NCBI GenBank assembly: GCA_016195565.1
Contig: JACPZK010000023.1
Location: 1-35,401 of the forward strand
Direction of reading: 5' to 3'
Length of the DNA stretch: 35,401 nucleotides
From: Nitrospirota bacterium
Lineage (GTDB): Bacteria; Nitrospirota; Thermodesulfovibrionia; Thermodesulfovibrionales; UBA1546
Within the stretch, counting starts at the first letter, position 1, and each line of letters opens with the position of its first letter. This document shows positions 3,868-20,067 of the stretch, piece by piece. The notes beneath the pieces are model-generated. The model was not told the DNA's origin, made no database searches, and saw only the letters and a list, made by a program, of their open reading frames with translations. A program made the position numbers and the translations under genes.

Positions 3868-3884
3868 ATGCAAAAACTATTCCC
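3868..3884 (-). promoter_or_regulatory. Candidate sigma-54 (-24/-12) promoter for the pentahaem cytochrome
   Basis: On the minus strand this reads GGGAAT-AGTTT-TTGCA, with the invariant GG and GC exactly 10 bases apart. The first position is G instead of T. It closely resembles the promoter candidate of the neighbouring pentahaem gene (TGGAAT-GTTTT-TTGCT). The predicted leader is about 125 nt. Confidence 0.55.
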
Positions 3885-3889
3885 ACTAA

Positions 3890-3921
3890 AAGACAGGTAA
3901 AATACTACCCTTACCTGTCTT
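3890..3921 (-). terminator. Hairpin, probable terminator of the 3990-4655 cytochrome; shortest copy of the hexamer element
   Basis: AAGACAGGTAA at 3890-3900 pairs perfectly with TTACCTGTCTT at 3911-3921 around a 10-base loop. On the minus strand the stem ends in a short T-run, about 70 bp past the pentahaem stop codon. Its arms are the terminal motifs of the hexamer-repeat element seen elsewhere in the window. Confidence 0.55.
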
Positions 3922-3989
3922 CATTGTGGGATTTCACTCACGAGGTGCGCTAAATTAAGCAAAAATTTACATAACTGGCATGTCTGTTC

Positions 3990-4655
3990 TTATTTTATAT
4001 GGCATGTATAACACAATGCACTCCCTGAGTTAGATTTCCTGAGAAAAGCCCCTCTGCTCGGGTCATGGGGGTCATGACAGGAAACGCATTCAACCCTGCC
4101 ACTATCTAACTTCACATCACTCCATCCCTTCTGTGTGTCAGGTGGTGTGTTAAAAGCAGGATCCTGTATAGTTGTAGGATATGTATTGGAGATAGGATGA
4201 TGCGCATTAAGGTTTAAAGGTTGTGTTGGGTTATCCCCGAAAAGACGCAAATTATTATCCGTAGTCCAATGACATCTATCACAATTGGGGTTTGATGTTG
4301 TATCAGGTATACTGCCCGCACCCGGGCCATTAATTAAATCATGCATTTTATTATTTGCATTTACGCCGTCATGGCAGCTAAAACATACAAGGGAACGAGG
4401 ATTAGGAGTAGCAGGGCATGTGGTGTTCATCGTGGGGCTTGAATAAGGTGTAAAGGTGTTTGTTGTAGTCTGCCTGTTCCATAGAGGTTTTAAAGCTGTA
4501 TTTGAAAAATGAGGCGTGTGGCAGAATACGCATATTTCTTCTCCAGCAGTGCTAATATCGTGCTTTGAACCCACGATGCTTGCGCCATATGCCAGTACAG
4601 CTATCATGGGCATTAGGAAAATTATTAAAAAAATTAGTTTTGCATTAATTTTCAT
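3990..4655 (-). CDS. Pentahaem c-type cytochrome, exported (paralogue of 2995-3732)
   Basis: Five CXXCH motifs (CVFCH, CFSCH, CDRCH, CVSCH, CYTCH) follow a signal peptide that begins MKINAKLIF and ends near VLAYGA. The frame is open to 4721, but a -24/-12 promoter candidate at 4684-4699 lies inside that extension, so the ATG at 4655 is preferred; AAGGCTGG is a modest ribosome-binding site. It shares GSKHDI, CVFCHTPH, KPLWNR, CHDPHD and LRKSNSGSALC with its neighbour, indicating a tandem duplication that has since diverged. Probable periplasmic or extracellular electron carrier. No partner-specific role can be read from the sequence. Confidence 0.9.
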   Translation of the reverse strand: MKINAKLIFLIIFLMPMIAVLAYGASIVGSKHDISTAGEEICVFCHTPHFSNTALKPLWNRQTTTNTFTPYSSPTMNTTCPATPNPRSLVCFSCHDGVNANNKMHDLINGPGAGSIPDTTSNPNCDRCHWTTDNNLRLFGDNPTQPLNLNAHHPISNTYPTTIQDPAFNTPPDTQKGWSDVKLDSGRVECVSCHDPHDPSRGAFLRKSNSGSALCYTCHIK

Positions 4656-4683
4656 AGATTGCACCAGCCTTTGTGTAACAATT

Positions 4684-4699
4684 AGCAAAAAACATTCCA
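4684..4699 (-). promoter_or_regulatory. Candidate sigma-54 promoter for the 3990-4655 cytochrome
   Basis: The minus strand reads TGGAAT-GTTTT-TTGCT, with GG and GC separated by exactly 10 bases and a perfect TTGCT -12 box. The predicted start, about 12 bases downstream, leaves a short leader containing the ribosome-binding site before the ATG at 4655. Confidence 0.65.
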
Positions 4700-4740
4700 G
4701 AATAAAGACAAGGCAGCTCAATAACTAAAGGGGGTTTTAA

Positions 4741-4818
4741 TGTCATTGCGAGGAAAAGATAGATTCCTCACCTGTCATTGCGAGGCACATGAAATGAGCC
4801 GAAGCAATCTCATGACAG
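4741..4818. repeat. GTCATTGCGAG-type dispersed repeat, rearranged copy
   Basis: TGTCATTGCGAG occurs at 4741 and again about 31 bp later, followed by GAAGCAATCTC. The same words form clean inverted elements at 17223-17294, 21871-21937 and 24546-24623. Together with a single hexamer-repeat arm (about 4854-4877) it fills the 4722-4922 gap. I see no gene there. Confidence 0.75.
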
Positions 4819-4922
4819 TTGCGGTAAACAAAAATTTAATACCCTTATTTTATTTACCTTTACCTTTTCCTGTCTTTTATCGTGGGATTTTACGCAAAGT
4901 GTGTGCAAATGCGCAGAAAATT

Positions 4923-6392
4923 TTACGGAATGGGCGAGAAGTTTTCTGCAAAATCTGTAATAAAACGTTTCATTTCCTCTGGCATGGAGGCGTGTATGGA
5001 CTTAATCTGCGAGCCGATACAGGAATGCTCCATCAGAAGCTTCATGACAGCTGTCATGTAGTCTCTTTTGAATACAGTCATGCTTTTTAGTTTTGAAAAC
5101 TTGTCCATATAAAAAATTCTCGTGGCCTTATTGAGCTCATCCCTTAATTCATCAATGGTCATATTTGTAGGTTTTACGACAGGTTCTATGAGATTATACT
5201 TGCTGTAGTCTTTTGTTACTACATAAGGTTCCAGTTCCTTATATATATCTGCATAAGGCCACGGCGCAATGGCGAGGAAAAAAGCCATGTCGGGATTATA
5301 ATGTTTTGAAAGTTCAACCGTGGCATTAATGGATTCCTTTGTTTCTTCCGGCATTCCGAGGACAAAGGATGTCTCGGAGATAATATCATGTTGGTTTATC
5401 AGGTCAATTGCTAATTTAGATTCCTCCACTTTTATGTCCTTTTTAAACCTGTCCAGCGTTTCCTGACTGGTGGATTCAACGCCTGCATATATATGGGCAA
5501 TGCCTGCCTCTTTATATTTCCACAGGATATCCTGATCCCTTATAATGTCCTCAACCCTTGTCTCCATGAGAAGCTCTATATCCATTCGCCTTTCTATAAG
5601 GAGATAAAGTATCCTTTCCCATCTTATTCTGTCAAAGGTCGGAGTCTCATCAGGAATCATAAACACATTAACACCGTATGTTTTATGGAGATATTCAATT
5701 TCTAAAACAAAATTCTCAGGAGACCGTGCCCTCCAGGTGCGGCTCCAGAAAAGCTGCTGTGAGCAGAAACTGCACTGCTGGTTGCATCCCCTTGACGAGC
5801 TGACAATGCCGAGTATGGAGTTTTCTTTTGGTCTGTATGAATAAATCTTCCAGTCAATTAAATCCCAGGCTGTGGGCAGAACATCAAGATCTTGTATATA
5901 TTCCCTCTGAGGAGTTGCAACAGCCCTGCCGTCAGCCCAATATGCTATGCCTTTTACCTTTGAAACATCACCTCTTGCAAAATGGCAGTCAAGGAGTTCG
6001 GGAAGCGTCAGTTCGCCCTCGCCTTTTACGATGTAATCCACATAGTTATGATTATTCCTGAGGATTTCTTCCCACATGAATGTGGGATGGACGTTGCCAA
6101 CAATAGTGACTATCTCGGGATTAATCTTTTTTGATAATCTGCATACTTCAATGCAGTCATTTATAGAGGCTGTAATTGCTGTTGTTGCAACCACATCGGG
6201 CTTACTGGTTTGTATTTTTTTAATAATTTCGTCATAAGTATGGAAATAAGACATGGCATCGTATAGCTCCACATCATAACCGGCGTTCCTGAGACTTCCC
6301 GCAAGATAAACAAACCCCAGGTTAAGCCATGTGCCTGCTGACTCAACCACGCCTGAGTGATACGGCGGTGTGATAAGCATTACCTTTTTCAT
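4923..6392 (-). CDS. B12-binding-domain radical SAM protein (BchE/methyltransferase-like class)
   Basis: A 489-residue protein. The N-terminal Rossmann-like domain (about 1-140) follows the cobalamin-binding layout, with ITPPYHSG and VGNVHPTF-type motifs, but has no DxHxxG, so any cobalamin would be bound without a lower His ligand. The radical SAM core starts near residue 195 with the cluster motif C203-N-Q-Q-C207-S-F-C210, then GGE-like and GVES motifs. The C-terminal 100 residues have no recognised domain. Substrate unknown: relatives act in tetrapyrrole, hopanoid and methyl-transfer chemistry. Its ATG overlaps the lipoprotein stop (ATGA), so it belongs to the ResB-ResC-lipoprotein operon. 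A role in haem or envelope-lipid chemistry is possible but is inference. Confidence 0.85.
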   Translation of the reverse strand: MKKVMLITPPYHSGVVESAGTWLNLGFVYLAGSLRNAGYDVELYDAMSYFHTYDEIIKKIQTSKPDVVATTAITASINDCIEVCRLSKKINPEIVTIVGNVHPTFMWEEILRNNHNYVDYIVKGEGELTLPELLDCHFARGDVSKVKGIAYWADGRAVATPQREYIQDLDVLPTAWDLIDWKIYSYRPKENSILGIVSSSRGCNQQCSFCSQQLFWSRTWRARSPENFVLEIEYLHKTYGVNVFMIPDETPTFDRIRWERILYLLIERRMDIELLMETRVEDIIRDQDILWKYKEAGIAHIYAGVESTSQETLDRFKKDIKVEESKLAIDLINQHDIISETSFVLGMPEETKESINATVELSKHYNPDMAFFLAIAPWPYADIYKELEPYVVTKDYSKYNLIEPVVKPTNMTIDELRDELNKATRIFYMDKFSKLKSMTVFKRDYMTAVMKLLMEHSCIGSQIKSIHASMPEEMKRFITDFAENFSPIP

Positions 6393-6904
6393 TTATTGCC
6401 CTTTTCTTCCTTCTTTTTCTCTGTTTTTACTTTTATCTCATTAATGAGCCATTTATTGTCTTTTTTAAGCAAAATATATTCCATCTCGTAATATATGCCT
6501 GAAGCAGGCAGAACTGATTGTTTGGTCTCAAGATTCTTGTACTCGTATATCCAATCCTCTAAAGTTATGACATTTGCACTGTTTCCAGATATGGTAATAT
6601 TTTTGAATTTAATATTTTCAAGCCTGCCGTTCATATACACATTAGAGTCATGCCACGAAGCAATCCAATGATTAAGTTTTTCTCTCTCCTTCTGAACTAA
6701 TATGTCCTTCATTGGCTCCGTATCGCCGGTCTTTGCAGCCTCAATAAGCATATTGTTGTAACTTATGACCGTATCTTTTATTAAAGTTTTGTCCTTTGCC
6801 GTTTCTATTTGAGAGCAGGAAAAAAGACAGGTTAAGGCTAAGGTTATGGTTAAGAAACGAATGATTTTTTTATGAAATTTTTTACATTTATTTTTCTCTT
6901 CCAT
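6389..6904 (-). CDS. Small lipoprotein of unknown function, signal peptide encoded by repeat DNA
   Basis: 171 residues. A basic n-region is followed by FLTITLALTCLFSC, with the lipobox Cys at residue 30. The mature part resembles small exported SnoaL/NTF2-like proteins in length and in its WLINEIK-type ending, but I do not assign a family. The h-region is translated from a hexamer-repeat arm, and the opposite arm supplies the ribosome-binding site in front of the ATG (see 6821-6923). It lies 20 bp after ResC and overlaps the radical SAM gene by four bases, so all are probably cotranscribed. Confidence 0.8.
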   Translation of the reverse strand: MEEKNKCKKFHKKIIRFLTITLALTCLFSCSQIETAKDKTLIKDTVISYNNMLIEAAKTGDTEPMKDILVQKEREKLNHWIASWHDSNVYMNGRLENIKFKNITISGNSANVITLEDWIYEYKNLETKQSVLPASGIYYEMEYILLKKDNKWLINEIKVKTEKKKEEKGNK

Positions 6905-6923
6905 TTTTCTTTTACCTGTCTTT
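6821..6923. repeat. Hexamer-repeat inverted element forming a gene start and signal peptide
   Basis: The outer ends AAAGACAGG (6823-6831) and CCTGTCTTT (6915-6923) are exact inverted matches. Read on the minus strand, the first arm gives the ribosome-binding region before the ATG at 6904. The second arm, a run of TTAACC/TTAGCC units, encodes the Leu-Thr-rich h-region (residues 18-25) ending just before the lipobox. Confidence 0.8.
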
Positions 6924-6924
6924 A

Positions 6925-7758
6925 TCAGAAATATGCTGAATGCAGCGATTCCACAGTAAATGGCACAAGATAGATACTAAATATTGACAGCACAAAACAG
7001 AACACGAGCATCCATGCGGCTTTTCTGCCCTTCCAGTTAAAAAATAGTCTCGAATGCAGATAAAGCCCATATAGCAGCCATGTTATCAGGGACCATATCT
7101 CTACAGTGTCCCATCCCCAGTATCTTCCCCATGCCTGATTTGCCCATATTGCCCCTGCAACAATGGTAATACTCCAAAATATAAAACCAAAACCGACAAA
7201 CTTATAACTGTAAGCATCAAGCACATTGATAGATGGAAATTTTTTGAAGAATTCAGTTTCACCCTTTTTCTCTTTTAAAAGGTATAGCACCGATGCCCCG
7301 AGTGCAATAATCAAAGCGCCCACCGAGAGATGATTGAATGTTACATGGATGACAAGCCATATACCTTTAAGGGATGGAGGCAAACCTTTTATTTCAGGAT
7401 TCATAAACAGACCGATTGTCATCATCAGAAAGCTCAGCGGCACAACAACAACACCTGCCGGTCTCATTTTCGTGTATCTCAAAGCAGCAATCAGAAACAT
7501 AACAATAACCACCCATGCATTGGAGGAAAGTATTTCGTATTTCATAAGGTAAGGCCCATGCCCCGTTGCCCACCATCTTAAACCGAGGGCAGCGGAATGG
7601 AATAAGAGTCCAAGGAATGTAAAAAACATTGCAGGCTTAATAGTCTTTTCCTTCCGGAAAGAGACACTGTAAGCAAAGAAGATAGTTGAAAGTATATAAA
7701 ATCCCACAGCTATCCAATGCAGGACAACTTCATATTTCAACATCAATAAATCATCCAT
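6925..7758 (-). CDS. resC: ResC/CcsA-type cytochrome c assembly protein
   Basis: A polytopic membrane protein of about 277 residues with eight likely spans. It carries the haem-handling WWD-type motif, here WGRYWGWDTVEIWSLITWL, where the usual DPKE is DTVE. Likely external-haem histidines lie in HVTFNHLSVG and in YLHSR. With ResB it exports haem and ligates it to CXXCH apocytochromes outside the membrane (System II). ATG 7758 was chosen over GTG 7764 because AGGAG lies about 10 bases upstream; either overlaps the end of ResB, as is usual for coupled pairs. No CcdA or authentic thioredoxin-like ResA is present in the window. Confidence 0.93.
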   Translation of the reverse strand: MDDLLMLKYEVVLHWIAVGFYILSTIFFAYSVSFRKEKTIKPAMFFTFLGLLFHSAALGLRWWATGHGPYLMKYEILSSNAWVVIVMFLIAALRYTKMRPAGVVVVPLSFLMMTIGLFMNPEIKGLPPSLKGIWLVIHVTFNHLSVGALIIALGASVLYLLKEKKGETEFFKKFPSINVLDAYSYKFVGFGFIFWSITIVAGAIWANQAWGRYWGWDTVEIWSLITWLLYGLYLHSRLFFNWKGRKAAWMLVFCFVLSIFSIYLVPFTVESLHSAYF

Positions 7759-9103: not shown

Positions 9104-9201
9104 TTCTTTCGTCTTTTCGTAAAGCTTTCGGTCTGTAGTAACAAAATTATGGGGTTAACCCGAAGTAAATACAATCAACGCCTTATATACTATTTTGAAC
9201 A

Positions 9202-9217
9202 AGCATGTTTGAAACCA
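9202..9217 (-). promoter_or_regulatory. Weak sigma-54-like promoter candidate upstream of ResB
   Basis: The minus strand reads TGGTTT-CAAAC-ATGCT, with correct GG-to-GC spacing (10) but a poor -24 box after TGG and ATGC instead of TTGC. It lies in the 9104-9249 gap between the large cytochrome and ResB. That gap otherwise contains only a GGGTTAACCC palindrome. Confidence 0.3.
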
Positions 9218-9249
9218 AAAATTTATGCTGTAAAACAGCGGATACTCTT

Positions 9250-11322
9250 TTATGGGTCGGCGCCAGAAATACCACCATGACCGCCGCAATTTGTAGAGCA
9301 GTTGCTTTGAGCATAGGTACCGCTCGTTTTTTTAAACCCTGTAACCTTAAGACTATTGCCATTATAATTGTATGGCGAAAGGTCTGTATTATATCCGATG
9401 AGCCTTGATCTCTTTGAGCCATGCGGCACTGCCATATGGCAATTAACACAGTATGCCCCCCTTGTAGACATTCCAGAATGGGCGCTATTTTTCCAGCTTC
9501 CATCGTATATCGGATGACAGTTCTTGCAGAAAAGGGCTGTATTACTCGTATCAGTTGTATTTAGTGTCCATAGAGTTGAGCCGTCAGACTTTGTAGGCCA
9601 GTACTTACCAGTCCCCTTGAGCATATATTTATAACTTGACCCATGGGGACCTTTAGGGTCTCCTGATGCCTCATTATCAGTGCCGTGGCAGTCAGAGCAG
9701 TACATAGTCTGATTTCCTACATTTGTTGCCCACGGCGAAGACATCTGTGCTGTTGTCAATGGCTTCGGCGCATAAGAGCCTGTCTGGTTATTTAATGTAA
9801 CCACAACAGGATGGGCTGACTTGTTGTTCGGATTGAATTCCATTGCCTGATCCGTTACTGTCACGCCTGATGCAGTTGTGTATGTTGTAATCCCATCACC
9901 GTCCCTCAATGCCCAGTATGAATGGCACTTAAAGCATATCTGGTATTCGTATGTTGAGGACTCCTGCGTAGTAAAGGTTGTAGGCACTGTCCATATTGCC
10001 GGCCATGTAGGTTCAACGCCTGTTACGCCGGTAAGGGCTCCTGATTTTGCTGTCTGGTTGGATTTATTATCAACAGTAGTTGGATACCATGCGGCTGTCC
10101 CCACACGGGCAGGTGTATTCTTTGCCTTGTGCGGATTATGACAGTCAACGCACTCAGCATGTCTTGAGTCCGACCACTGAAGACCCTTGCCGGCAGCCGT
10201 AGGATAGAGAACATCAAGGTTCGTATGAACCCCTGAGATTGTTGTTGTCGGATGCTTGTATGTCCGTGTTATAACTGTCTGTATCCTGTTTGTTGTTGCT
10301 GAAGCGCTTGAGCCGTGACATGCTGTCTCAGTAGTCAAGCCGGATGCTCCCTGAAAACATGTGGTCTCTTCAGCCTGCCTTAATAGATAAGGCGCGCCGA
10401 GGCCTTTGTGCGGCCTGTGGCAGTTCATACAGACAAGGGATGATATGGTGCCTGCATCAAATGTGGTATTAACAGTTGCATCTGAATAAGCATTTGCGGC
10501 GGTCTGGTGGATACTTCCAGTCCAGCCTGTCTTTGAATGGCAGGCGCTGCATGTATTGCTTATCTTGGCTGCAAGGGTGCCTCCAGTGGTATCTCTTAAA
10601 AATTTCTGCTTACTGTATCCAGTATCTATATGGGGATCATGACAAGATGAACACTCAACATAGTTCTTGGCGCTTATACTATAGAGTTTCATAGCCGTAG
10701 ATGTCGGATTCGATATAAGTTCTATGCTCCTTGAGCCTGAACCGAAGGAAATTGTTATTGCCGAGTTATACTCGATGCCAACAGGATGGTGTTTTGTGAG
10801 GTCTGTGCCTATATAGCCGGCCGCAGTTGTGGGCATCTTATCTGCGGTAACGCCTGACATGGCAATTACATTGTTTCCAAGGATTGTTCCTCTTACCAAA
10901 TAAATCGCTCCGACAGCAACCGTGCCGTCATGGCAGCTCAGACATTGCCTTGAAAGCATTCCCGGCTCTCCAGTAGCAGCGCCAAGCCCTGATGGGACTG
11001 TATAACCTGCCCTTGTCAGATAGTCACTGTTATACATGGTATAGCCGGTAGTCGGCATATCATGATTCCACAATGGCCTGCCTGCTTGGGCATTATGGGG
11101 TATGTGGCAAAACACGCATATCTCTGTCTCAGAGCCCGCTGGTATAGGGGCTGGTTGGGTTACCTGGGCTTTTATGGTAGCAGTAGGAGGCGCCGATGTC
11201 GACATATTGTGAACTGTGTTTGAAATCCCAGCATAAGAAAAATAGGCAAAGGTTAAGGTGAAGGCAAGGAAAACCAATAAAATTAAGAAGATATTTGCCT
11301 GTTTCTGAATAAGGCGTTTCAT
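9250..11322 (-). CDS. Large multihaem c-type cytochrome (10 canonical CXXCH plus non-canonical sites)
   Basis: 690 residues with a signal peptide cleaved near SYAG (about residue 32). Canonical motifs in order: CVFCH, CLSCH, CSSCH, CSACH, CMNCH, CVDCH, CFKCH, CSDCH, CKNCH, CVNCH. Between the fifth and sixth is C322-X12-C335-H336, a possible unusual haem site, and near the end C675-STN-C679-GGH. The first 260 residues follow the fold of the smaller cytochromes here (CHIPH, PLWNH, CLSCHDG, CHDPH). The rest is Thr/Ser/Asn-rich, as in surface-exposed cytochromes. A good ribosome-binding site (GAGGGGAG) precedes ATG 11322. It has its own sigma-54 promoter candidate. Likely the outer or extracellular electron carrier of the conduit (inference). 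Confidence 0.9.
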   Translation of the reverse strand: MKRLIQKQANIFLILLVFLAFTLTFAYFSYAGISNTVHNMSTSAPPTATIKAQVTQPAPIPAGSETEICVFCHIPHNAQAGRPLWNHDMPTTGYTMYNSDYLTRAGYTVPSGLGAATGEPGMLSRQCLSCHDGTVAVGAIYLVRGTILGNNVIAMSGVTADKMPTTAAGYIGTDLTKHHPVGIEYNSAITISFGSGSRSIELISNPTSTAMKLYSISAKNYVECSSCHDPHIDTGYSKQKFLRDTTGGTLAAKISNTCSACHSKTGWTGSIHQTAANAYSDATVNTTFDAGTISSLVCMNCHRPHKGLGAPYLLRQAEETTCFQGASGLTTETACHGSSASATTNRIQTVITRTYKHPTTTISGVHTNLDVLYPTAAGKGLQWSDSRHAECVDCHNPHKAKNTPARVGTAAWYPTTVDNKSNQTAKSGALTGVTGVEPTWPAIWTVPTTFTTQESSTYEYQICFKCHSYWALRDGDGITTYTTASGVTVTDQAMEFNPNNKSAHPVVVTLNNQTGSYAPKPLTTAQMSSPWATNVGNQTMYCSDCHGTDNEASGDPKGPHGSSYKYMLKGTGKYWPTKSDGSTLWTLNTTDTSNTALFCKNCHPIYDGSWKNSAHSGMSTRGAYCVNCHMAVPHGSKRSRLIGYNTDLSPYNYNGNSLKVTGFKKTSGTYAQSNCSTNCGGHGGISGADP

Positions 11323-11385: not shown

Positions 11386-11402
11386 AGCAAATTTAGTGCC
11401 AT
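11386..11402 (-). promoter_or_regulatory. Sigma-54 promoter for the large cytochrome
   Basis: The minus strand reads TGGCAC-TAAAT-TTGCT, a full match to the -24/-12 consensus. The predicted leader is about 50 nt before ATG 11322. A GTTCAC inverted repeat begins exactly 10 bp upstream of the -24 T, the same geometry as at 19670-19685. Confidence 0.8.
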
Positions 11403-11410
11403 AATTTTAA

Positions 11411-11472
11411 GTTCACCGTTCACTGTTTACGATTATTTAATTGCTGTGAACCGTGAACCGTTGACTGTGAAC
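11411..11472. repeat. GTTCAC inverted repeat overlapping the end of the NHL gene
   Basis: GTTCACCGTTCACTGTTTAC at 11411-11430 faces GTGAACCGTGAACCG and TGTGAAC at about 11455-11472. The repeat covers the last NHL codons, so its C-terminal tail (SSQSTVHGSQQ) is translated repeat sequence. A longer copy is at 19695-19804. Both abut sigma-54 promoters, so it is either a dispersed repeat or an activator-binding array. Confidence 0.75.
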
Positions 11473-12505
11473 TTTTAATATACCTGAACACCTGCACCCT
11501 CATATTATAAGAATCCGCTACATATATTTTATCATCATTTGAAATGCTTATGCCTCCCGGAAGCGCAAACTCTCCATGCTTCGTCCCCTGTCTGCCGAAC
11601 ACAAGCAGCGGCTGCCCTGACTTATCAAATATAGTAACCGCCTCAAAAAGCGTATCGGTTATGTATATATGGCCTTCGCTGTCGAGGGCAATACCCCTCG
11701 GATTGGCCAAATCTCCTGCAGCATTTCCCCTTCTGCCGAACTTGCCAACAAATTTCCCCTGTTTATCAATTATTTGAACTCTTATATTCATTGTATCGGT
11801 AATGTATAAATTTCCATCTCTTCCAAGAGCAATAAAGGTCGGACGGTTAAACTCGCCGTTGCCGCCGCCGTACCCTCCGATTGTTTTTATATATTTGCCG
11901 TCCAGACTATAAACAAAAATTTTGCTTGCAAGGGTATCAACCACGTAGAGGGCGCCTGACATATTGTCTATAGCGATTCCGGTAGGCCTTTGCATAACAT
12001 TGTCAGAGCCTATTTCTCTCAGAAACTTTCCCATTTTATTAAAAACATATACCCTTCTCATGACAGAGTCTGATATGTAGATATTGCCTTCATTATCCAC
12101 CGCCACGTCTATAGGGGAAGAAAGACGGGTTTTCTTACTTACACCCTCTATAACAAAATATTTGCTATCTTTGGGGTCAAAGACATGAACTGACTGATCG
12201 GCAGTATCTGTAACATATAGCCTGCCGTTGTCGTCAGCAAAAATGCCAAAGGGCTTTATAAGTCCTTCCCTTGACTCACCTGCAACAAACTCCCATACGC
12301 GGCGGAAAAAACCCTTTTTAATCTGAAAATCATCAGGGGTTGTGATGGAATATAAAAATTCTATCCTCGGCTCCCAAGGCGGCGGAGGCCAGACAATATG
12401 CTCCTTTTGGACTTCGCCGGTATTCTTACCCGGTCCCATGCTGATGCTCATAAAAGCAGCCATGATAATGAGGAGATAAAGGGTTTTTCTAAGTTTTGTT
12501 ATCAT
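11420..12505 (-). CDS. NHL-repeat beta-propeller protein, exported
   Basis: 361 residues. A signal peptide (MITKLRKTLYLLIIMAAFM) without a lipobox is followed by the proline-rich WPPPPWEPRIEFL, then about six NHL blades with repeated RPTGIAID, GALYVVDT, GNLYITDT and GHIYITDT signatures. NHL propellers are protein-interaction or scaffold modules and accompany barrel-cytochrome conduits in metal reducers. It is the last gene of the conduit operon and directly abuts the preceding HAMP gene. A paralogue with a lipobox is at 17360-18469. The C-terminal 15 or so residues come from a GTTCAC repeat and are probably dispensable. Confidence 0.88.
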   Translation of the reverse strand: MITKLRKTLYLLIIMAAFMSISMGPGKNTGEVQKEHIVWPPPPWEPRIEFLYSITTPDDFQIKKGFFRRVWEFVAGESREGLIKPFGIFADDNGRLYVTDTADQSVHVFDPKDSKYFVIEGVSKKTRLSSPIDVAVDNEGNIYISDSVMRRVYVFNKMGKFLREIGSDNVMQRPTGIAIDNMSGALYVVDTLASKIFVYSLDGKYIKTIGGYGGGNGEFNRPTFIALGRDGNLYITDTMNIRVQIIDKQGKFVGKFGRRGNAAGDLANPRGIALDSEGHIYITDTLFEAVTIFDKSGQPLLVFGRQGTKHGEFALPGGISISNDDKIYVADSYNMRVQVFRYIKSSQSTVHGSQQLNNRKQ

Positions 12506-13120: not shown

Positions 13121-13876
13121 TTATTTCTTGTGACACGCCAGACAGAGGGCGCTGCCCCTGTTACTTATTGCAAGATCAAACCTTTCCTTTGAATATATGT
13201 TATGGCACGACCCACAGCCAATTTTTCCATCAAAAAACCTGATGGAAGGGTTTATGCTCGATGGGTGTTTCAACCCGCCATCCCTGTAAGCCTTCATATA
13301 TTCTACACCAATTGGGTGAGAGACGCCATTGCCGTGGTTCCATATCCCTGAACCAATCTTAACAACTGATGCCCTTGCGAGGGCGCTATCGTGGCAGCTC
13401 AGGCATTCCATAGACAGCCTGTCTATGGGATTTCCTTTATTAGTTACCTCAAACCCTCTTACATCTACAGCGCTTCGTGAGTGCGCAGGCTGGTCGGATC
13501 CACTATGCCTTCCCATAGCTCCCTTATGGCAGGTATAACAAAAAACCCTCCCTATCTTTTCTCCCCTCAGCAAGGGTTCACTACTGCCATGGACATCATG
13601 GCACGTGGCGCAGGTTATCCTGCCTGCCCAATCGAGGGGGAACTTATCGGGTATAGGCATTGACGGCCTCATGCCTGATGGATGAGAAAGGCCGAGGTCC
13701 CCATGACAATCCTTACATTGAAAGTCGATCTCTTTAACAAAAATCCTCTTGCCATCTGATGAAGTGAGATGACATAGAGAACACTTCCCTTCAAAGTTAT
13801 GCGCCGGTTTTTTTGCCATTAATAGCAACGGGATCATCGCAATGGTTAATAGAAGAAACCACTTCAGGGGGCTCAT
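13121..13876 (-). CDS. Heptahaem c-type cytochrome, membrane-anchored or exported
   Basis: Seven CXXCH motifs: CSLCH, CKDCH, CATCH, CYTCH, CLSCH, CGSCH, CLACH. The frame opens at 13984, but the part before MSPLKWFLLL overlaps the upstream HAMP gene and is not signal-like, so ATG 13876 is chosen, 28 bp after that gene's stop. The hydrophobic segment ends PLLLMAKKP with no clear cleavage site, so it may stay as a membrane anchor. CHDVHGS and the C-terminal SNRGSALCLACHKK tie it to the doubled-CXXCH class. Between two HAMP membrane proteins and downstream of the barrel, it is the likely periplasmic partner of the outer-membrane conduit (inference). Confidence 0.88.
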   Translation of the reverse strand: MSPLKWFLLLTIAMIPLLLMAKKPAHNFEGKCSLCHLTSSDGKRIFVKEIDFQCKDCHGDLGLSHPSGMRPSMPIPDKFPLDWAGRITCATCHDVHGSSEPLLRGEKIGRVFCYTCHKGAMGRHSGSDQPAHSRSAVDVRGFEVTNKGNPIDRLSMECLSCHDSALARASVVKIGSGIWNHGNGVSHPIGVEYMKAYRDGGLKHPSSINPSIRFFDGKIGCGSCHNIYSKERFDLAISNRGSALCLACHKK

Positions 13877-13904: not shown

Positions 13905-14438
13905 CTAAACTCTGAATCTTTCAATCGCCTTACCAAGGTTATCCACCTTTTCCTTGAGCCTTTCTGCAGATTCAGGCGTATCATCTATTTCCTTTCTCGC
14001 TCCCTCAAATTCCTCATAGGCATCGCTGATGGCGCGAAAATGTTCATTCAGTCCGTTTATCATTGTATTAAAACTGCCGGCAGTATCCTGAAGCTGGTCA
14101 TAGCTTCTGAAGGTTATGGGTCTGACCTTTCTTGTGTTCACAAGTTCATTAAGGACCCTCCGGAGGCTGTAAACCGGACCGGCTATCTTATGTGAGGCAA
14201 GCACTGCAACCAGGACGACCACGCCGGATATGACTATAGACTCCACTATTAAAGCGGCCCTTATAACGCCTGAAAGGGCGTCATCGGCCTCTATGAATGA
14301 CTGTATGGCATCAGCATAGTGCCTGATTTCTAAACTCGGGATAGCAATATAAAGTAACAGGGCAATTACACCCATGCCTGTTAACACAATGCCTGTGAAT
14401 CTCAGAATAAATTTACGCTCAAAACTCTTCTCTATCAT
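13905..14438 (-). CDS. HAMP-domain membrane protein without output domain
   Basis: 177 residues: TM1 about 10-34, a periplasmic loop of only about 25 residues, TM2 about 58-82, a HAMP segment (KIAGPVYSLRRVLNEL), then an acidic coiled coil. It is a paralogue in architecture of 12506-13096 but with little visible identity. Such HAMP-only proteins lack a signalling output and could act as membrane adaptors. Its ribosome-binding site lies in a hexamer-repeat arm (14439-14463). Part of the barrel - HAMP - heptahaem - HAMP - NHL operon. Confidence 0.75.
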   Translation of the reverse strand: MIEKSFERKFILRFTGIVLTGMGVIALLLYIAIPSLEIRHYADAIQSFIEADDALSGVIRAALIVESIVISGVVVLVAVLASHKIAGPVYSLRRVLNELVNTRKVRPITFRSYDQLQDTAGSFNTMINGLNEHFRAISDAYEEFEGARKEIDDTPESAERLKEKVDNLGKAIERFRV

Positions 14439-14463
14439 TCCCTTTTCCTTTACCTATACCTGC
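14439..14463. repeat. Single hexamer-repeat arm between the barrel and HAMP genes
   Basis: On the minus strand it reads GCAGGTATAGGTAAAGG then AAAAGGGA, directly preceding ATG 14438. The repeat provides the Shine-Dalgarno sequence and nearly fills the 26-bp intergenic gap. Confidence 0.6.
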
Positions 14464-14464
14464 T

Positions 14465-16141
14465 TTAAAATGGTCTTGATACTTGGAAAAATGTAGTTGA
14501 CCTTGTCTTGACCCCTTGAGGCCCTTTCTCCTGCCACAAATCATTTTTGAGGTTCATCGTAATACTCCTTAATCTGTATTCTACACCTAAAGAGCCCAAA
14601 GTTGTGCTGGTGTTGTTAATGCTTTCTTTATAAAAATTCAGCCCTGCATTCAAGGACAAATCCCTTCTCAACACATACCTGAAAGTCAAATTGCCGTATC
14701 TGAACGTCCTCGGAGTCGTTCCCCTCTCGAATATTATCCCAGCTTTTGCATCAAGGCTGCCTCTAAAGCCTAACTGCATAAAGTATCCTAAAGAATTATC
14801 GGATGTAAGATTTTTTGTCTTTGTGACGGTCGAGGTCCCATCTGTCTCATCACCAATGGTATTTTCCTCAGAGAAATTAAGAAGACTCTGGAAGGTAAGG
14901 TTCTGTATAAAACGGTTTATAAATCCTGCATTATAGACATATCTCGTGGTCTTTCCTCCCAGAGATGAGTTATATAAATAGTAGGAGCCGCCGCCGTTGA
15001 TTTCTGATTTTATTTTGTCAAATAATTTGGAAACCCTTCCGCCGATTGAATAGGACATAGAATTTCTATTCTCTGATGTCTCAGATTGCTGTGCCGTACC
15101 GTTTGCAGATGTGTCCGCAGAAAATGTAAGACTGTCAGGCAGCGGCTTTGTAAAGGCAAGTCCGAGCGTCAGCGCCTCCGTCGAGTCGTTTCCGGAATCG
15201 CCTGTGCTTTTATAGAGCATAAGGTTCTGGTTTGTTGTAAAAAATTGACTGATTTTATATGTCGAATTCCCGAAAAAGGTCGCAAAGTTACCGATTTCTT
15301 CCTTTTGTTTTATTCGGCTTGCATATAAGCTAAGATTAGAATTAAAGTCAGACGATGGCACATAGTTGAAATTCATATTAGAGCCTATGGTCGTAAATTC
15401 GTTATAACTGTTGTCATTATAACTCGTATCCATGTTGAACCTTGTGTCTTTGCCGGGCTTCAGGCCGAAGGAGACCTTTGCATCGTTTATAGCCTCAAAC
15501 CTATTGCTCTCTTTTTCAAGATTGTGTTGATATGAATAGCTTGCGTCAATATACGTTTCACCTTTCCTGCTGTCTATTCCAAATAATAAACTCCTGTTCC
15601 TCTGGTCTGTTACATCAGTTGCACTTGTAGTCTTTGTGTTGTCCTGATGAATATCGTATTTTAGATTTGTTCCAGCGCCTATGCGGGCATTACCAAAGAG
15701 TCCATATCTATCAGTGGTTTGCCTTGTCAGGAAGCTCTGTTCAGGCTGTATTGTCCATGTGGGCAGTTCAAATTTTTCCTTGTATATTGTGAACGGATAT
15801 TTTGTGCCCTGAATAAAGTCCAGCTTGAGATTGTAATCGTGGCTTTTTGCTTTGACAGTTGTCTCCCCGGAACTGGATTCATCGGTCTTGGAATCCTCTT
15901 CTCTGAATGAACCACCAATGTTATACATTAAAAGCCTCGGGCTATAAATAGCTCCCTGATACCGTAATTTATATTCCTGAATAAATGAGCTTTTTTTAGA
16001 CTCAGCATCTATGTCTTTATTTTCATCCTGCTGGTACGTATATTGTAAAAGTCCTGAAAGCCTTTCCTGCTGGGCAAACAGCGGCATGGGGAACATCATG
16101 GCAACAAATGTGATTAATGCATAAATCCATACCCCTCTCAA
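14465..16141 (-). CDS. Outer-membrane beta-barrel (porin of a porin-cytochrome conduit)
   Basis: 558 residues. A signal peptide ends PLFA-QQ (about residue 23). The rest shows alternating polar/aromatic strands with Asn/Ser/Thr-rich turns throughout and ends FFQVSRPF, with the terminal Phe expected for BAM-inserted barrels. Length fits a barrel of about 20 or more strands. The start is TTG at 16141, with AGGGGGA upstream. No haem motif is present. Between a PPIase and multihaem genes, it most likely forms the pore that holds a cytochrome across the outer membrane, as in Geobacter and Shewanella conduits; this is family and context inference. Confidence 0.82.
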   Translation of the reverse strand: MRGVWIYALITFVAMMFPMPLFAQQERLSGLLQYTYQQDENKDIDAESKKSSFIQEYKLRYQGAIYSPRLLMYNIGGSFREEDSKTDESSSGETTVKAKSHDYNLKLDFIQGTKYPFTIYKEKFELPTWTIQPEQSFLTRQTTDRYGLFGNARIGAGTNLKYDIHQDNTKTTSATDVTDQRNRSLLFGIDSRKGETYIDASYSYQHNLEKESNRFEAINDAKVSFGLKPGKDTRFNMDTSYNDNSYNEFTTIGSNMNFNYVPSSDFNSNLSLYASRIKQKEEIGNFATFFGNSTYKISQFFTTNQNLMLYKSTGDSGNDSTEALTLGLAFTKPLPDSLTFSADTSANGTAQQSETSENRNSMSYSIGGRVSKLFDKIKSEINGGGSYYLYNSSLGGKTTRYVYNAGFINRFIQNLTFQSLLNFSEENTIGDETDGTSTVTKTKNLTSDNSLGYFMQLGFRGSLDAKAGIIFERGTTPRTFRYGNLTFRYVLRRDLSLNAGLNFYKESINNTSTTLGSLGVEYRLRSITMNLKNDLWQEKGPQGVKTRSTTFFQVSRPF

Positions 16142-16156
16142 CTTTCCCCCTACGTT

Positions 16157-16256
16157 AAAGACAGGTAGAGGAAGAGGTAAAGGTAGAGGTAGAGTAAAAA
16201 AACAAAAAAATCCTTTGCCTGTCTTTCTTTACCTTTACCTCTTCCTCTACCTGTTT
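16157..16256. repeat. Hexamer-repeat inverted element, non-coding copy
   Basis: The left arm (16160-16195) is runs of AGGTAGAGGAAG/AGGTAA; the right arm (16222-16254) is CTTTACCTTTACCTCTTCC then CTACCTG. The arms pair over about 30 bases around an A/T-rich centre. The element fills the gap between PpiC and the barrel and could fold as an mRNA hairpin. A short frame beginning ATG 16257 overlaps the PpiC stop but soon terminates; I do not call it a gene. Confidence 0.8.
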
Positions 16257-17344
16257 CATTGAATGTACTGTATCTTTGCATTCTCTCTAAGTCTTTTTAT
16301 AAGACTTTCTAATCTGTTTTTCTGCATGGACTCTGTGAGCTCTTTTTTGAGCTTATCTTTTACCTCCTTAAAAGACACCTGTCTTGACGCCCTTTTTTCT
16401 TCGACTTTCAAGATATGAAACCCTATGTCTGTCTCAATAATTTCGCTTAGCTGTCCAACTTTTAACGAAAAAGCTGCCTTTTCTATATCCTGAGGCATCA
16501 TTCCCCTGTGAACAAATCCTACATCGCCTCCCTTTACCCTGCTCATGTCATGAGAATAAGTCTGTGCTATCTGGGCAAAATCCGAGCCTGACTTAATCTT
16601 TGAATAAGCCTCTTTTGCCCTCTCTTTAGCCTTTTTCCTTCCGTCGGGCTCCGAGGGATTTATCTTTACATACACGTATCCAAGCCTTACTGCCTCAGGT
16701 TCCTTGAACTTCTCTGTATTTTTTTTGTAGTATTCTTCAAGGTCGTTATCTGTAAGGGAAACCTTCACCTCTTTTTCAATGAGCTTTTCAACCACAAGGT
16801 TCTTCCTGACCTTCTCCTCAAAAACAGGCATTGTCATACCGCTTTTTTTCAGGGCATCCTTAAATGCCTTAGTAGAGGGATACGATGCCTTGACAGAGCT
16901 TATACTTTTTTCCAGTTCTGAATTATCAACCTTCAGATCCTGTCTCTTTGCCTCAATATAAAAAAGCTCTGCATCTATAAGATTCTCAATGGCCTTTTTT
17001 TCCATCTCTTTCTGTTTTTCAGGGGATATGCTTCGATGATAAAGCTCTTGAGGCGCCAACCTGTTGATTTCCATGTCCAGTTCGGCACGGGTAATCCCGG
17101 CGCCATTTACAAATGCCACAACCTTGCTTTCTTTTAGATCGTCAGCAGCAAAGGCAATTGAATTCAAAATGCAAAATGCAAAAATCAAAATTGATGGAAT
17201 CCCAAATCCAGCGACAAGAGTTGTCATTGCGAGTGAAACGAAGCAATCTCGCCTTTTGCTATGAGATTGCCACGGGCTCCGCCCTCGCAATGACGTCTTC
17301 TCGGTGTAATTTTTGAATTTTAAGTTGTGATTTTGCATTTTCAA
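16256..17344 (-). CDS. PpiC/SurA-type peptidyl-prolyl isomerase, exported
   Basis: A SurA-like N-terminal chaperone helix region (about 75-215) is followed by a parvulin domain (about 220-320) with HDMSRVKGGDVGFVHRG and FSLKVGQLSEIIETDIGFHILKV-type signatures, and a charged C-terminal helix. Such proteins fold outer-membrane barrels or secreted cytochromes, and one sits beside cytochrome-conduit genes in several metal reducers. The first 67 residues are unusual: residues 20-41 are translated from a GTCATTGCGAG inverted repeat, and the hydrophobic signal segment (GIPSILIFAFCILNSIAFA, about 48-66) from an A/T-rich ATGCAAAA repeat. No convincing ribosome-binding site precedes TTG 17344, ATG 17338 or ATG 17227, so the start is uncertain. 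Confidence 0.85.
   Translation of the reverse strand: MKMQNHNLKFKNYTEKTSLRGRSPWQSHSKRRDCFVSLAMTTLVAGFGIPSILIFAFCILNSIAFAADDLKESKVVAFVNGAGITRAELDMEINRLAPQELYHRSISPEKQKEMEKKAIENLIDAELFYIEAKRQDLKVDNSELEKSISSVKASYPSTKAFKDALKKSGMTMPVFEEKVRKNLVVEKLIEKEVKVSLTDNDLEEYYKKNTEKFKEPEAVRLGYVYVKINPSEPDGRKKAKERAKEAYSKIKSGSDFAQIAQTYSHDMSRVKGGDVGFVHRGMMPQDIEKAAFSLKVGQLSEIIETDIGFHILKVEEKRASRQVSFKEVKDKLKKELTESMQKNRLESLIKRLRENAKIQYIQ
17158..17202. repeat. ATGCAAAA-type A/T-rich repeat forming the PpiC signal segment
   Basis: CAAAATGCAAAATGCAAAAA is followed by TCAAAATT. A related sequence in opposite orientation lies at about 17306-17350. On the minus strand it is translated as the hydrophobic core of the PpiC signal peptide. 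Confidence 0.65.
17223..17294. repeat. GTCATTGCGAG inverted-repeat element inside the PpiC reading frame
   Basis: A 72-bp element with perfect 11-bp ends, GTCATTGCGAG and CTCGCAATGAC, plus internal GAAGCAATCTC and GAGATTGCC. It lies in frame within the N-terminal extension of PpiC. Other copies are intergenic. Confidence 0.85.
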
Positions 17345-17359
17345 TTTTAATTTTTTAAT

Positions 17360-18469
17360 TCATTTCAGCAGGTATTCCTTATATTTCTCGGGATTTTCCT
17401 TTTTCCATTTCTCGCTCAGATACTGGAATATCTGCACCCTGTGGTTATAGGAATCCACAATATATACCCTGTCTTTTTCATCCACATATACGCCTGCGGG
17501 GAGCCAGAAATGTCCTGGTTCATGCCCCGGTCCTCCTATGAAAAGAAGGAGTTGCCCCTTGTCATCGAATATCTGAAGGTTGTCAAATGCAGCATCAGCA
17601 ATATAAATATGCCCTTCACTGTCAACTCCGATGCCCTTAGGACGGGTAAATGTCCCTGGAGCATCTCCAATTTGGCCGAATCTTTTTACAAATTTACCGT
17701 CTTTATCAAACACCTGAACCCTAAAATTCTGCGTATCGACTACATAGACATTGTCCGTCTTTCTTTCTACAGCAATATTGGAAGGAAAATTAAATTCACC
17801 GTCTCCATCCCCTCTCTTACCAAAGGCAAACAACGGCTCGCCTTTTGTTGAATACACATGCACCATATGTCCATAACTGTCAACTATATATAGCCTTCCA
17901 AGTTCATTGTTTACAGCTATACCTGCCGGGTTTTTAAATTCATCTTTCTTGCCGAGGGCTATTTTCAGATTTCCGTTCGCATCATAGCCGAATACCCTCT
18001 TCTGTTTTGCATCCGACACAAAGACAATTCCGTCGGAAGTAACAGCCACACCTATAGGAAGGGCAAGCTTTCCCATATCCTTATCCCCCATAAAGGTCAC
18101 TTTCCGCTCCTTCAGGTCAAAGACAAATACAACAGCGCTCCCGGTATCCGTAACATACATCTTATCTCCATAAGCGGCAACCCCATAAGGCTTCCGGAGT
18201 TCAGATATTAACTGCTCCTCTCCAAGAACAAACTCAAGAAAACCCTTTTTCTTAAAATTGCTTTCCCCTTTATAACTGTTCAGATAAACTATTTTTGGCT
18301 CCTCAGGAGGTGAGGGATAGATAAGCTTAACTTCCTTTGTGGGCGCTGCACAGGAAGACAGGAAAAACAACAGGCAAAGGTAGAGGTAGAGATAGAGTTT
18401 TTTACTGCTGTTTTCTTTACCTTTACCTATACCTTTACCTGTTTCTGCCTTTACCTGTCTTTTACTCAT
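17360..18469 (-). CDS. NHL-repeat lipoprotein with a repeat-derived signal peptide
   Basis: 369 residues. The lipobox LSSC places the lipidated Cys at residue 40, then a YPSPPEEPKIVYL segment and about six NHL blades (KPYGVAAYG, KMYVTDTG, GRLYIVDSYG, NVYVVDTQN, GHIYIADA, RVYIVDSYN). It is the lipidated partner of the NHL protein at 11420-12505. The signal peptide is translated repeat: residues 11-18 are GKGIGKGK from the purine arm and residues 25-33 LYLYLYLCL from the pyrimidine arm of one inverted element. ATG 18469 overlaps the RHH gene by eight bases. Likely periplasm-facing outer-membrane lipoprotein scaffold of the conduit (inference). Confidence 0.88.
   Translation of the reverse strand: MSKRQVKAETGKGIGKGKENSSKKLYLYLYLCLLFFLSSCAAPTKEVKLIYPSPPEEPKIVYLNSYKGESNFKKKGFLEFVLGEEQLISELRKPYGVAAYGDKMYVTDTGSAVVFVFDLKERKVTFMGDKDMGKLALPIGVAVTSDGIVFVSDAKQKRVFGYDANGNLKIALGKKDEFKNPAGIAVNNELGRLYIVDSYGHMVHVYSTKGEPLFAFGKRGDGDGEFNFPSNIAVERKTDNVYVVDTQNFRVQVFDKDGKFVKRFGQIGDAPGTFTRPKGIGVDSEGHIYIADAAFDNLQIFDDKGQLLLFIGGPGHEPGHFWLPAGVYVDEKDRVYIVDSYNHRVQIFQYLSEKWKKENPEKYKEYLLK
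18356..18463. repeat. Hexamer-repeat inverted element encoding the NHL lipoprotein signal peptide
   Basis: It begins with GACAGG at 18356. The arm 18371-18397 (AGGTAGAGGTAGAG-type) faces the arm at about 18414-18460 (CTTTACCTTTACCT and TTTACCTG units), ending CCTGTCTTTT. Both arms are in frame with the lipoprotein because the unit is six bases long. All of the signal peptide after residue 3 lies within the element. Confidence 0.85.
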
Positions 18470-18653
18470 TGTCCACCTCTGTTTCGCCCCTATCGTTTAG
18501 ATGCCTCCCCTGTTTTTCTAAATATTCCCTTAATGCATCCCGTATTATATCAGACATGGCAGCCCGTTTGCCCTGCCTTTTACTCATGTCGGCAGCCATC
18601 TCAAGCAAGTGCATCTTTATATCTTTGTCTAAATATATTGTTGTCTTTTCCAT
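18462..18653 (-). CDS. Ribbon-helix-helix (CopG/Arc-type) DNA-binding protein
   Basis: 63 residues. The start MEKTTIYLDKDIKMHLLEMA is a typical RHH beta strand and first helix, followed by a second helix (SDIIRDALREYLEK). The C-terminus is short, acidic and without an antitoxin-like tail. No toxin gene is adjacent; the next gene, overlapping by eight bases, is the NHL lipoprotein. As first gene of the conduit operon it may be an autoregulator of it (inference). Confidence 0.8.
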   Translation of the reverse strand: MEKTTIYLDKDIKMHLLEMAADMSKRQGKRAAMSDIIRDALREYLEKQGRHLNDRGETEVDNE

Positions 18654-18660
18654 CTTAAAA

Positions 18661-18772
18661 CAGTAAGAAGGAAAAGGTAAAGGTAGAGGGAAAGGAATAG
18701 CAAAAAATAAAGTTTCTTTTGTTTGCTTTTTGTTTCTTCATCTTAACCTTTGCCTTTACCTGTCTTCAATGC
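18661..18772. repeat. Hexamer-repeat inverted element upstream of the RHH gene
   Basis: The arm at 18670-18693 (AAGGTAAAGGTAGAGGG-type) faces the arm at 18744-18768 (TTAACCTTTGCCTTTACC then TGTCTT). It occupies most of the leader of the RHH-headed operon. No -24/-12 promoter is visible in this gap. Confidence 0.75.
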
Positions 18773-18798
18773 CATATATATGTCAAACTTAAGAATCC

Positions 18799-18830
18799 AA
18801 AAAAAGGGGGAATTCTTCCCCCCTTTTTTT
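18799..18830 (-). terminator. Bidirectional rho-independent terminator after the tetraheme cytochrome
   Basis: A run of seven A, then GGGGGAA, loop TTC, TTCCCCC and seven T. The stem and T-run work on either strand. On the minus strand it lies about 25 bp past the stop at 18856, separating the tetraheme cytochrome message from the RHH-headed operon. Confidence 0.88.
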
Positions 18831-18855
18831 AACTGAATACTACCTGAATACTACC

Positions 18856-19569
18856 TTATTTGCCGTGACAGCTGAGGCAAAGTGCGCTGGATGCATTGCT
18901 TAGTCTCAAAAATAATGCTCCTGCAGTTGTTCCCTGCCCGGTTGTGTCTCCAGTATTCGCATGGGGATCATGACAGCTTGAGCATTCTACCTTGCCGTTC
19001 CTGAGGAGGGCTGCTAATGTCGAAGTACCAAATACAGTCGTGGTTGCCTTCAGGCTTGCCGTTCCAGCAGTGTAGGTGATTGAAACCGGATGATCATCTG
19101 CAAGGGTTTGCCCGATATTGGTTGATGTCCCAGTCATTAGGAGCGCTGTTCCCAGAGGGGTTGCACCGAATGCTACGTTAGTACCGGCAGTAACAACTCC
19201 ACCTGAACCAGCCTGGTTAACTAAGGAGTTGATAGCGTTTACGCCATCATGGCAGCTCAGACATGCCTTGGTAATACCATTTGGTGTTGCATCAGGAGTT
19301 GTACCTGCTATGGTTGTTCCATACATTGTGTATGAACCTGTTGGAGTCGCCTTGTTCCATAGCGGGGCGCCTGTAAAGCCTGTGTTAGCAAAGTGAGGGG
19401 TATGACAGTATACGCAGATTTCGTCGTTCTGCTGGCCTGCGCTTGCCTTGACTGTGCCACTACCGGTGTTGGATAGATTATGCTTTGTGGCTGATATGCC
19501 TGCCAGCGCTGCGCCTGCGCTTAAAAGCGCTATTGCTACTACCATTACTACTAAAATCCTACTTTTCAT
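18856..19569 (-). CDS. Tetraheme c-type cytochrome, probably abundant; candidate filament-type subunit
   Basis: 237 residues from ATG 19569, chosen because a perfect AAGGAGGTGA lies just upstream; the longer frame from 19674 overlaps the promoter. The signal peptide is cleaved near GAALA-GIS, leaving about 210 residues. Four CXXCH motifs: CVYCH, CLSCH, CSSCH, CLSCH. Signatures SATKHNLSNTG, CVYCHTPHFANTG, APLWNK, CLSCHDGVNA and CHDPHANTG link it to the pentahaem proteins. Gly/Ala/Thr-rich, low in charge. It has its own sigma-54 promoter, best-in-window ribosome-binding site and strong terminator, consistent with high expression. Size, haem count and neighbourhood resemble OmcE-type tetraheme filament cytochromes, but this is inference without structural evidence. 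Confidence 0.9.
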   Translation of the reverse strand: MKSRILVVMVVAIALLSAGAALAGISATKHNLSNTGSGTVKASAGQQNDEICVYCHTPHFANTGFTGAPLWNKATPTGSYTMYGTTIAGTTPDATPNGITKACLSCHDGVNAINSLVNQAGSGGVVTAGTNVAFGATPLGTALLMTGTSTNIGQTLADDHPVSITYTAGTASLKATTTVFGTSTLAALLRNGKVECSSCHDPHANTGDTTGQGTTAGALFLRLSNASSALCLSCHGK

Positions 19570-19669
19570 TATATTCACCTCCTTTTGTTTGGATTTGAAG
19601 CCTATTACTTTTTCAGTCATTATCTCATCACCCCCTATCATTAATTTCGAACATCTTGATAATAGAATA

Positions 19670-19685
19670 AGCAAGCCTTATGCCA
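19670..19685 (-). promoter_or_regulatory. Sigma-54 promoter for the tetraheme cytochrome
   Basis: The minus strand reads TGGCAT-AAGGC-TTGCT, one mismatch from consensus and correct 10-base GG-GC spacing. The predicted leader is about 90 nt and carries a second ribosome-binding-like GGGGGTGATGAG before the true start. A GTTCAC array begins 10 bp upstream of the -24 T. Confidence 0.75.
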
Positions 19686-19694
19686 GATGGAAAA

Positions 19695-19804
19695 GTTCAC
19701 TGTTCTCTGTTCACTGTTCACGGTAAGCCTTTGATTATTAATTATTTTTTATCTCAACTTTTTTTTACTATAAACTGTGAACCGTGAACGGTGAACTGTG
19801 AACT
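19695..19804. repeat. GTTCAC inverted-repeat array between divergent cytochrome promoters
   Basis: Three GTTC(A/T)C-type words from 19695 (GTTCACTGTTC, TGTTCACTGTTCACGG) face GTGAACCGTGAACGGTGAAC and TGTGAACTT at 19777-19804 around an A/T-rich centre. It lies between the minus-strand tetraheme promoter and the plus-strand promoter at 20052. It may be an enhancer array for the NtrC-type activator or a mobile repeat. Confidence 0.75.
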
Positions 19805-19883
19805 TATTTGTTGCGTAATATCACGCAGTAAGTGAGGAAAATAACGGTTCTTTCGTAAAAAAGTTGAAAATTATACAAATGAC

Positions 19884-19985
19884 AAACCTTCTGGATTCCC
19901 CGAACAAGTCGGGGAATGACGGATTTTGCAAGTCAGAGAATGACCTCTAATTCTGTCATACTCCGGCTTGACCGGAGTATCCAGT
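19884..19985. repeat. GGAATGAC/GTCAT-type dispersed repeat
   Basis: TGGATTCCCCGAAC, TCGGGGAATGACGG, then GTCATACTCCGG and ACCGGAGTATCCAG form two nested inverted pairs. With the GTTCAC array and the promoters it accounts for most of the 520-bp gap 19570-20091. I see no additional gene there. Confidence 0.7.
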
Positions 19986-20051
19986 TTGTCTTTTTCAACT
20001 TAAATACGACTGAGGGAAATAAATTCTTTCCTTTACCTGTTTCTTTTTTTG

Positions 20052-20067
20052 TGGTAAGATTTTTGCA
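20052..20067 (+). promoter_or_regulatory. Sigma-54 promoter for the small tetraheme cytochrome
   Basis: TGGTAA-GATTT-TTGCA, with perfect TTGCA and exactly 10 bases between GG and GC. The predicted start near 20078 leaves about 14 nt including the AAGGG ribosome-binding site before ATG 20092. It is the only plus-strand example. Confidence 0.7.

Follow-up and report, generated by a model that had tools for sequence, protein, structure and literature searches.

The cytochrome genes on this Nitrospirota contig appear to make up a sigma-54 regulon that is largely complete in itself, serves an outer-membrane cytochrome conduit and is controlled by a haem-sensor switch; we put the probability of this reading at about 0.8. 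The window, the whole stretch of DNA analysed, is the entire contig C23 (35,401 bases), one of the 33 contigs that make up the 2.30-Mb genome. Its genes include those for eight multihaem cytochromes with 5, 5, 10, 7, 4, 4, 8 and 13 CXXCH motifs, a pair of NHL propeller proteins, a PpiC foldase, cytochrome maturation proteins of the ResB/CcsA type, and a histidine kinase with an NtrC-type regulator. A 558-residue barrel-like protein of the cluster (14465-16141) found no match in a Pfam search and may be an outer-membrane barrel.

In the proposed circuit, a sigma-70-type promoter at about 27851-27880 would drive an operon that ends in the genes for the histidine kinase and the NtrC-type activator. 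The Cache-like domain of the kinase would hold a covalent c-haem and report either the redox state or the presence of a haem ligand (NO, for example). Once phosphorylated, the activator would bind a 16-bp palindrome, approximately TGYGTGAWATYACRCA, usually as two dimers spaced by about 21 bp. From palindromes that precede the sigma-54 sites by 56-240 bp it would drive open-complex formation at sites 1, 2, 4 and 5, and hence expression of their cytochrome genes. Site 3 would be a sigma-54 promoter too, and may use another of the 16 activators of the genome. We infer from the sequence which protein occupies the palindrome, which signal is sensed, that the sensor carries haem and that the promoters are active.

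The preliminary description had proposed five TGG-N10-GC promoters, each directly before a different cytochrome gene. Site 1 (GGGAATAGTTTTTGCA, 3869-3884, minus strand) lies upstream of a 5-haem gene that starts at 3732 (2995-3732, minus; Pfam Paired_CXXCH_1), and site 2 (TGGAATGTTTTTTGCT, 4684-4699, minus) upstream of a second 5-haem gene, starting at 4655 (3990-4655, minus). Site 3 (TGGCACTAAATTTGCT, 11386-11401, minus) precedes the 10-haem gene (9250-11322, minus). Sites 4 (TGGCATAAGGCTTGCT, 19670-19685, minus) and 5 (TGGTAAGATTTTTGCA, 20052-20067, plus) precede divergent 4-haem genes, one starting at 19569 (18856-19569, minus) and the other lying at 20092-20433 (plus). The placement holds throughout: five different genes with 4-10 CXXCH motifs, each with its site in the correct orientation. 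The GG-N10-GC spacing is found in all five; the full TGG is found in sites 2-5, whereas site 1 reads GGG. Against TGGCACG-N4-TTGCW the sites score 8-11 out of 12, these being consensus scores rather than values from an experimental weight matrix.

A score of at least 10/12 within 200 bp upstream was found for four of the eight multihaem genes and for none of the 26 others (34 genes; Fisher p 0.0015). The chance of an equal score in Markov-shuffled upstream DNA, taken region by region, is 0.038 for site 1 and 0.012, 0.0003, 0.002 and 0.0007 for sites 2-5. Matches to a loose consensus are common in the window (56 observed, 43 expected), and the evidence therefore rests on position, orientation and conservation, by which the five sites are confirmed as genuine sigma-54 promoter candidates. 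No comparable sigma-54 site was found upstream of the multihaem genes at 13121, 23465 and 26424 (three of the eight in the window). A further match, TGGAATATATTTTGCT at 6468-6483 (minus; 9/12), lies 75 bp before a radical-SAM gene (4923-6392) and recurs in four relatives; it sits within the coding sequence of the 6389 gene.

The gene starts at 4655 and 19569, which had been corrected earlier, both hold. The best start of the 3990 frame is ATG 4655 (MKINAKLIFLIIFLMPMIAVLAYGA, followed by a signal peptide) and that of the 18856 frame is ATG 19569 (ribosome site AGGAGGTG); longer versions of these frames would cross sigma-54 sites 2 and 4. For the 2995 gene, ATG 3732 should likewise be preferred over GTG 3819 for its ribosome site and signal peptide; the longer frame from GTG 3819 stops short of the site 1 promoter.

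Conservation was assessed in syntenic clusters, whose metagenome-derived genomes are for the most part labelled Nitrospirae or Thermodesulfovibrionales: G046, G037 and G026 (family f12), G005 (same genus, partial cluster), several named records, and G032, whose partial cluster is without kinase and regulator. Identity over the 16 bases of each of the five promoters is 83-100%, compared with 28-44% in the 80 bases upstream and 60 bases downstream, and the promoter site ranks first or second among 141 windows in every set; as the clusters are orthologous, these are non-independent observations. Orthologues of site 1 are 88% identical, against 28-30% in the flanks, and read either GGGAAT (G037, L307) or TGGAAT (G026, G046). 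Site 3 is kept in seven of seven clusters and site 4 in five, and site 5 is identical in G046 and G026; G037 has TGGTAAGATTTTTGTA there, with GT replacing GC. The best form of site 3, TGGCACGAAATTTGCT, is held by G005, in which a search for an orthologue of the regulator found none. The same genome has a copy of the 18856-gene orthologue (L086, upstream of the gene at 2093, reversed strand) with TTGACA-N16-TATAAT, an apparent promoter swap in which the sigma-54 site has been replaced. Given this copy and a site 3 kept with no regulator found, sigma-54 control is not universal.

The genome is equipped for sigma-54 transcription. rpoN, whose presence had been set as a check, is encoded (PF04552, E 5.1e-62), as are 16 full NtrC-type activators, and the sigma-54 promoter of nifH, TGGCATATATATTGCT, an internal control, is present and supports functioning sigma-54 transcription. 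The suggested test for enrichment upstream of cytochrome genes gave a qualified answer. Pattern searches, with the stretches around the matches, gave 21 strict promoter-like sites: the nifH promoter is among them, and five others lie before genes with four or more CXXCH motifs (hypergeometric p 3e-8, assuming 2,300 genes and 12 multihaem genes, both counts being estimates). Genome-wide enrichment is only weakly testable, because the PF09699 cytochromes of the genome lie nearly all on this one contig. On another contig, a 9-haem gene (G000:C6:13006; locus L204, about 2006) has a sigma-54 site of its own, TGGCATCTTAATTGCT, and adjoins a different NtrC-type activator.

Footprinting by aligned upstream regions revealed the 16-bp palindrome upstream of sites 1, 2, 4 and 5, recurring in the same form before different genes. 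The copy TGAGTGAAATCCCACA (3925-3940) lies 56 bp upstream of site 1, TGCGTAAAATCCCACG (4881-4896) lies 197 bp upstream of site 2, and TGCGTGATATTACGCA (19812-19827) lies between the divergent sites 4 and 5. Each of these candidate enhancers has a weaker second palindrome close by: TGCTTAATTTAGCGCA (3946-3961) at 21 bp, TGCGCATTTGCACACA (4900-4915) at 19 bp and ACCGTTATTTTCCTCA (19833-19848) at 21 bp, respectively. The best neighbouring copy is 19-22 bp distant at 17 of 19 places, with a commonest spacing of exactly 21; about 21 bp would be two helical turns, as two activator dimers on one face of the DNA need. In the 2.3-Mb genome TGNGTNANATNNCNCA has three matches, of which two fall in the cluster. 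A palindrome matrix was built from ten sites, with G032 outside the motif set; in G032 two matches of 18.5 and 11.3 bits precede a 12/12 sigma-54 site by 100 and 80 bp, and one of 14.8 bits precedes a second sigma-54 site by 110 bp. No palindrome was found within 700 bp upstream of site 3 in any of the seven clusters, and this promoter may use a different activator.

Several other repeated elements were set aside. Close to sites 2, 3 and 4 lie the repeats GTTCACGGTTCAC and TGTCATTGCGAGG, which we did not accept as enhancers because further copies occur elsewhere in the window; intergenic repeats of the GTTCACGGTTCAC, TGTCATTGCGAGG and CCTTTACCTTTACC types are dispersed near several promoters (3900-4900, 11410-11474, 19770-19810 and 24571-24629). 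Palindrome matches inside genes, TGCGTGTTTTGCCACA, were discarded as CXXCH codons, and the TGAGTAATTTTACTCA palindromes of G003 and G011 were discarded because they precede an unrelated gene and occur without the regulator too.

Palindrome and promoter are also paired in other genomes of the order. Forty loci were read around palindromes listed from 121 genomes, the loci being chosen by eye from the palindrome listing with the downstream gene not known at the time of choice. Outside the orthologues of the f12 cluster, seven palindromes that had no part in building the motif lie 350 bp or less from a sigma-54 site, and all seven pairs front cytochrome, cytochrome-cluster or haem-sensor genes. 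These are 5-haem genes at L294 (with two palindromes 21 bp apart) and L309, 4-haem genes at L310 and L314, an NHL gene adjoining 7- and 4-haem genes at L311, an HD-GYP protein with a CXXCH sensor at L296, and a 21-haem gene at L300, where the site is weak (AGGCTTGAATATTGCA) and the palindrome falls within an ORF on the automatic call. An orthologue of the regulator is present in every genome holding one of the seven pairs. No such pair was found in the sampled genomes in which the regulator was not found (e.g., G051, G083, G106, G058, G065, G109, G077, and G079), and some regulator-bearing genomes are likewise without one (e.g., G076, G091, and G011).

The likely activator and its kinase are encoded in the same cluster, as first described. 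The NtrC-type response regulator (20435-21850, minus) has a receiver, a Sigma54_activat domain and a Fis HTH. The loop of its central domain reads GAFTDA, not GAFTGA, a form shared by nearly all orthologues, seen only in this regulator among the activators of the genome, and listed among the loop variants expected to keep activity (PMC4641369). The recognition helix SRDALRY[KR]MQKFG is largely retained in orthologues that are 53-60% identical to the regulator, and in the cassettes read at length their neighbours are ResB, CcsA and a CXXCH kinase, in most cases joined by a receiver-only regulator; a receiver-only response regulator is encoded at 2609-3019 (minus) in the window. Upstream of the regulator gene, the 8-haem cytochrome, thioredoxin-TPR and TPR proteins and 13-haem cytochrome (23465-27803, minus) probably share an operon with kinase and regulator, one that opens with the 13-haem gene and ends with the kinase and regulator. 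Before it lies TTGACA-N18-TAAAAT (27851-27880, minus), conserved in four clusters, with a spacing of N17 in relatives; this conservation makes the regulator operon look sigma-70 driven.

The histidine kinase (21956-23464, minus) has a periplasmic Cache-like domain with a CYRCH c-haem motif, and an Asn and the CXXCH are invariant in the periplasmic domain of 23 of 23 kinases. The AlphaFold model of the sensor domain (mean pLDDT 89.3) matches, by Foldseek, the Cache domains of WalK, CitA and DcuS and the haem sensors GSU0935 (3b42) and GSU0582 (3b47). A PDB sequence search with the domain returned chance matches only. In Pfam the domain stays under the cut-offs, at 19.7 of 27 bits for Mcp40H-20_sensor and 12.5 of 24.1 for Tll0287-like, and is therefore termed Cache-like with a c-haem motif and left unassigned to sCache_heme. 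Haem Cache domains fused to signalling modules have been reported to have NO-sensor-like properties (PMC12889525), and the signal here may accordingly be NO and not redox potential. Of the redox-controlled sigma-54 regulon originally predicted, the sigma-54 part is well supported, given rpoN, conserved sites, a shared palindrome and an activator and kinase in the cluster; redox control is a surmise, and the signal could be NO.

The sites could be sigma-54 promoters while the palindrome belongs to another regulator, either a different one of the 16 activators or a factor unrelated to sigma-54, with the neighbouring kinase and regulator controlling something else. This we consider unlikely. In its favour, binding of the regulator to the palindrome is a prediction from the DNA, the genome has 15 other activators, site 3 is without the palindrome, and the 9-haem gene on C6 has a site of its own next to a different activator. 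Against this, pairs of palindrome and sigma-54 site were seen only in genomes with the regulator orthologue, pairs and regulator have been passed on with the cluster, the recognition helix is conserved, and the tandem layout at about 21 bp fits an NtrC-type activator.

Mis-binning of the contig, which would mean that rpoN and the counted activators come from another organism, gains some credence from the regulator, which is 88-89% identical to those of family f12, with no close orthologue in the same-genus genomes searched. It is nevertheless very improbable, since UbiA, encoded on the flank, has 83-92% identity to same-genus genomes against about 75% to f12, and part of the cluster is present in the same-genus G005. 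The simplest reading is a native contig with a cluster that has been shared horizontally. Chance matching in AT-rich intergenic DNA is hardly credible as the origin of the five sites: loose matches do exceed expectation and site 1 is weak by itself, but the sites are strongly conserved amid unalignable flanks, are correctly oriented and placed at five of eight multihaem genes, and have independent enhancer-promoter counterparts in other genera.

With the sites taken as promoters of a regulon switched by the haem-sensor kinase, the cytochrome wiring appears to pass between species in one package with its switch, because near four of the five promoters lie matching palindromes that are most likely binding sites of a regulator switched by the haem sensor. 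This suggests that a cytochrome conduit can pass horizontally together with its own switch, and inheritance in this form would explain how it could function in a new host. A bolder proposal, which we regard as tentative and rather doubtful, is a portable redox feedback module, in which the haem sensor would exchange electrons with the cytochromes it controls, the wire would report its own load of electrons, and the whole set of promoters, enhancers, sensor and conduit would move between families across the order as one unit.

Sigma-54 control of cytochromes is already known in Geobacter (PMC2725144) and Desulfovibrio (PMC4641369). The RpoN regulon of Geobacter sulfurreducens resembles the present one in its sigma-54 promoters (consensus there TTGGCACGGTTTTTGCT) and in that extracellular-electron-transfer cytochromes are reported to be affected; it belongs to another phylum, and the available text ties no haem-sensor kinase or tandem palindrome to cytochrome genes (PMC2725144). 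In Desulfovibrio vulgaris, the DVU3142 gene for a sigma-54 activator lies beside the octahaem-cytochrome operon ohcBAC, and both conserved sigma-54 promoters and predicted sites for the activator are present; DVU3142 is a one-component regulator with GAFTGA that lies divergently to a single operon, whereas here a two-component GAFTDA regulator faces promoters across a large cluster (PMC4641369). The sCache_heme sensors GSU0582 and GSU0935 share the periplasmic single-Cache-like fold and conserved CXXCH, and Nitrospirota are rich in such domains (PMC12889525); the domain in the window differs in its sub-threshold Pfam scores and in its output, a kinase facing a cytochrome regulon. OetABI-type porin-cytochrome conduits likewise combine multihaem cytochromes with an outer-membrane beta barrel and show inferred horizontal movement (PMC10553843), a likeness of gene-cluster make-up.

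A literature search found no paper on sigma-54 control of cytochromes in Nitrospirae, nor a description of how extracellular electron transfer is controlled in uncultured Nitrospirota-type bacteria; the lineage, the enhancer and the sensor coupling look new. The circuit offered, of haem sensor, activator, enhancer sequence and promoters, is open to test, and the motif could be used for finding electron-transfer genes in other genomes. The left flank of the cytochrome cluster (113-2655) holds fragments of RHS-type repeat proteins and an integrase-like ORF. The ends of the contig (2-139 and 35264-35401) are perfect inverted repeats of 138 nt, which may be an assembly feature or flanking copies of a mobile element.
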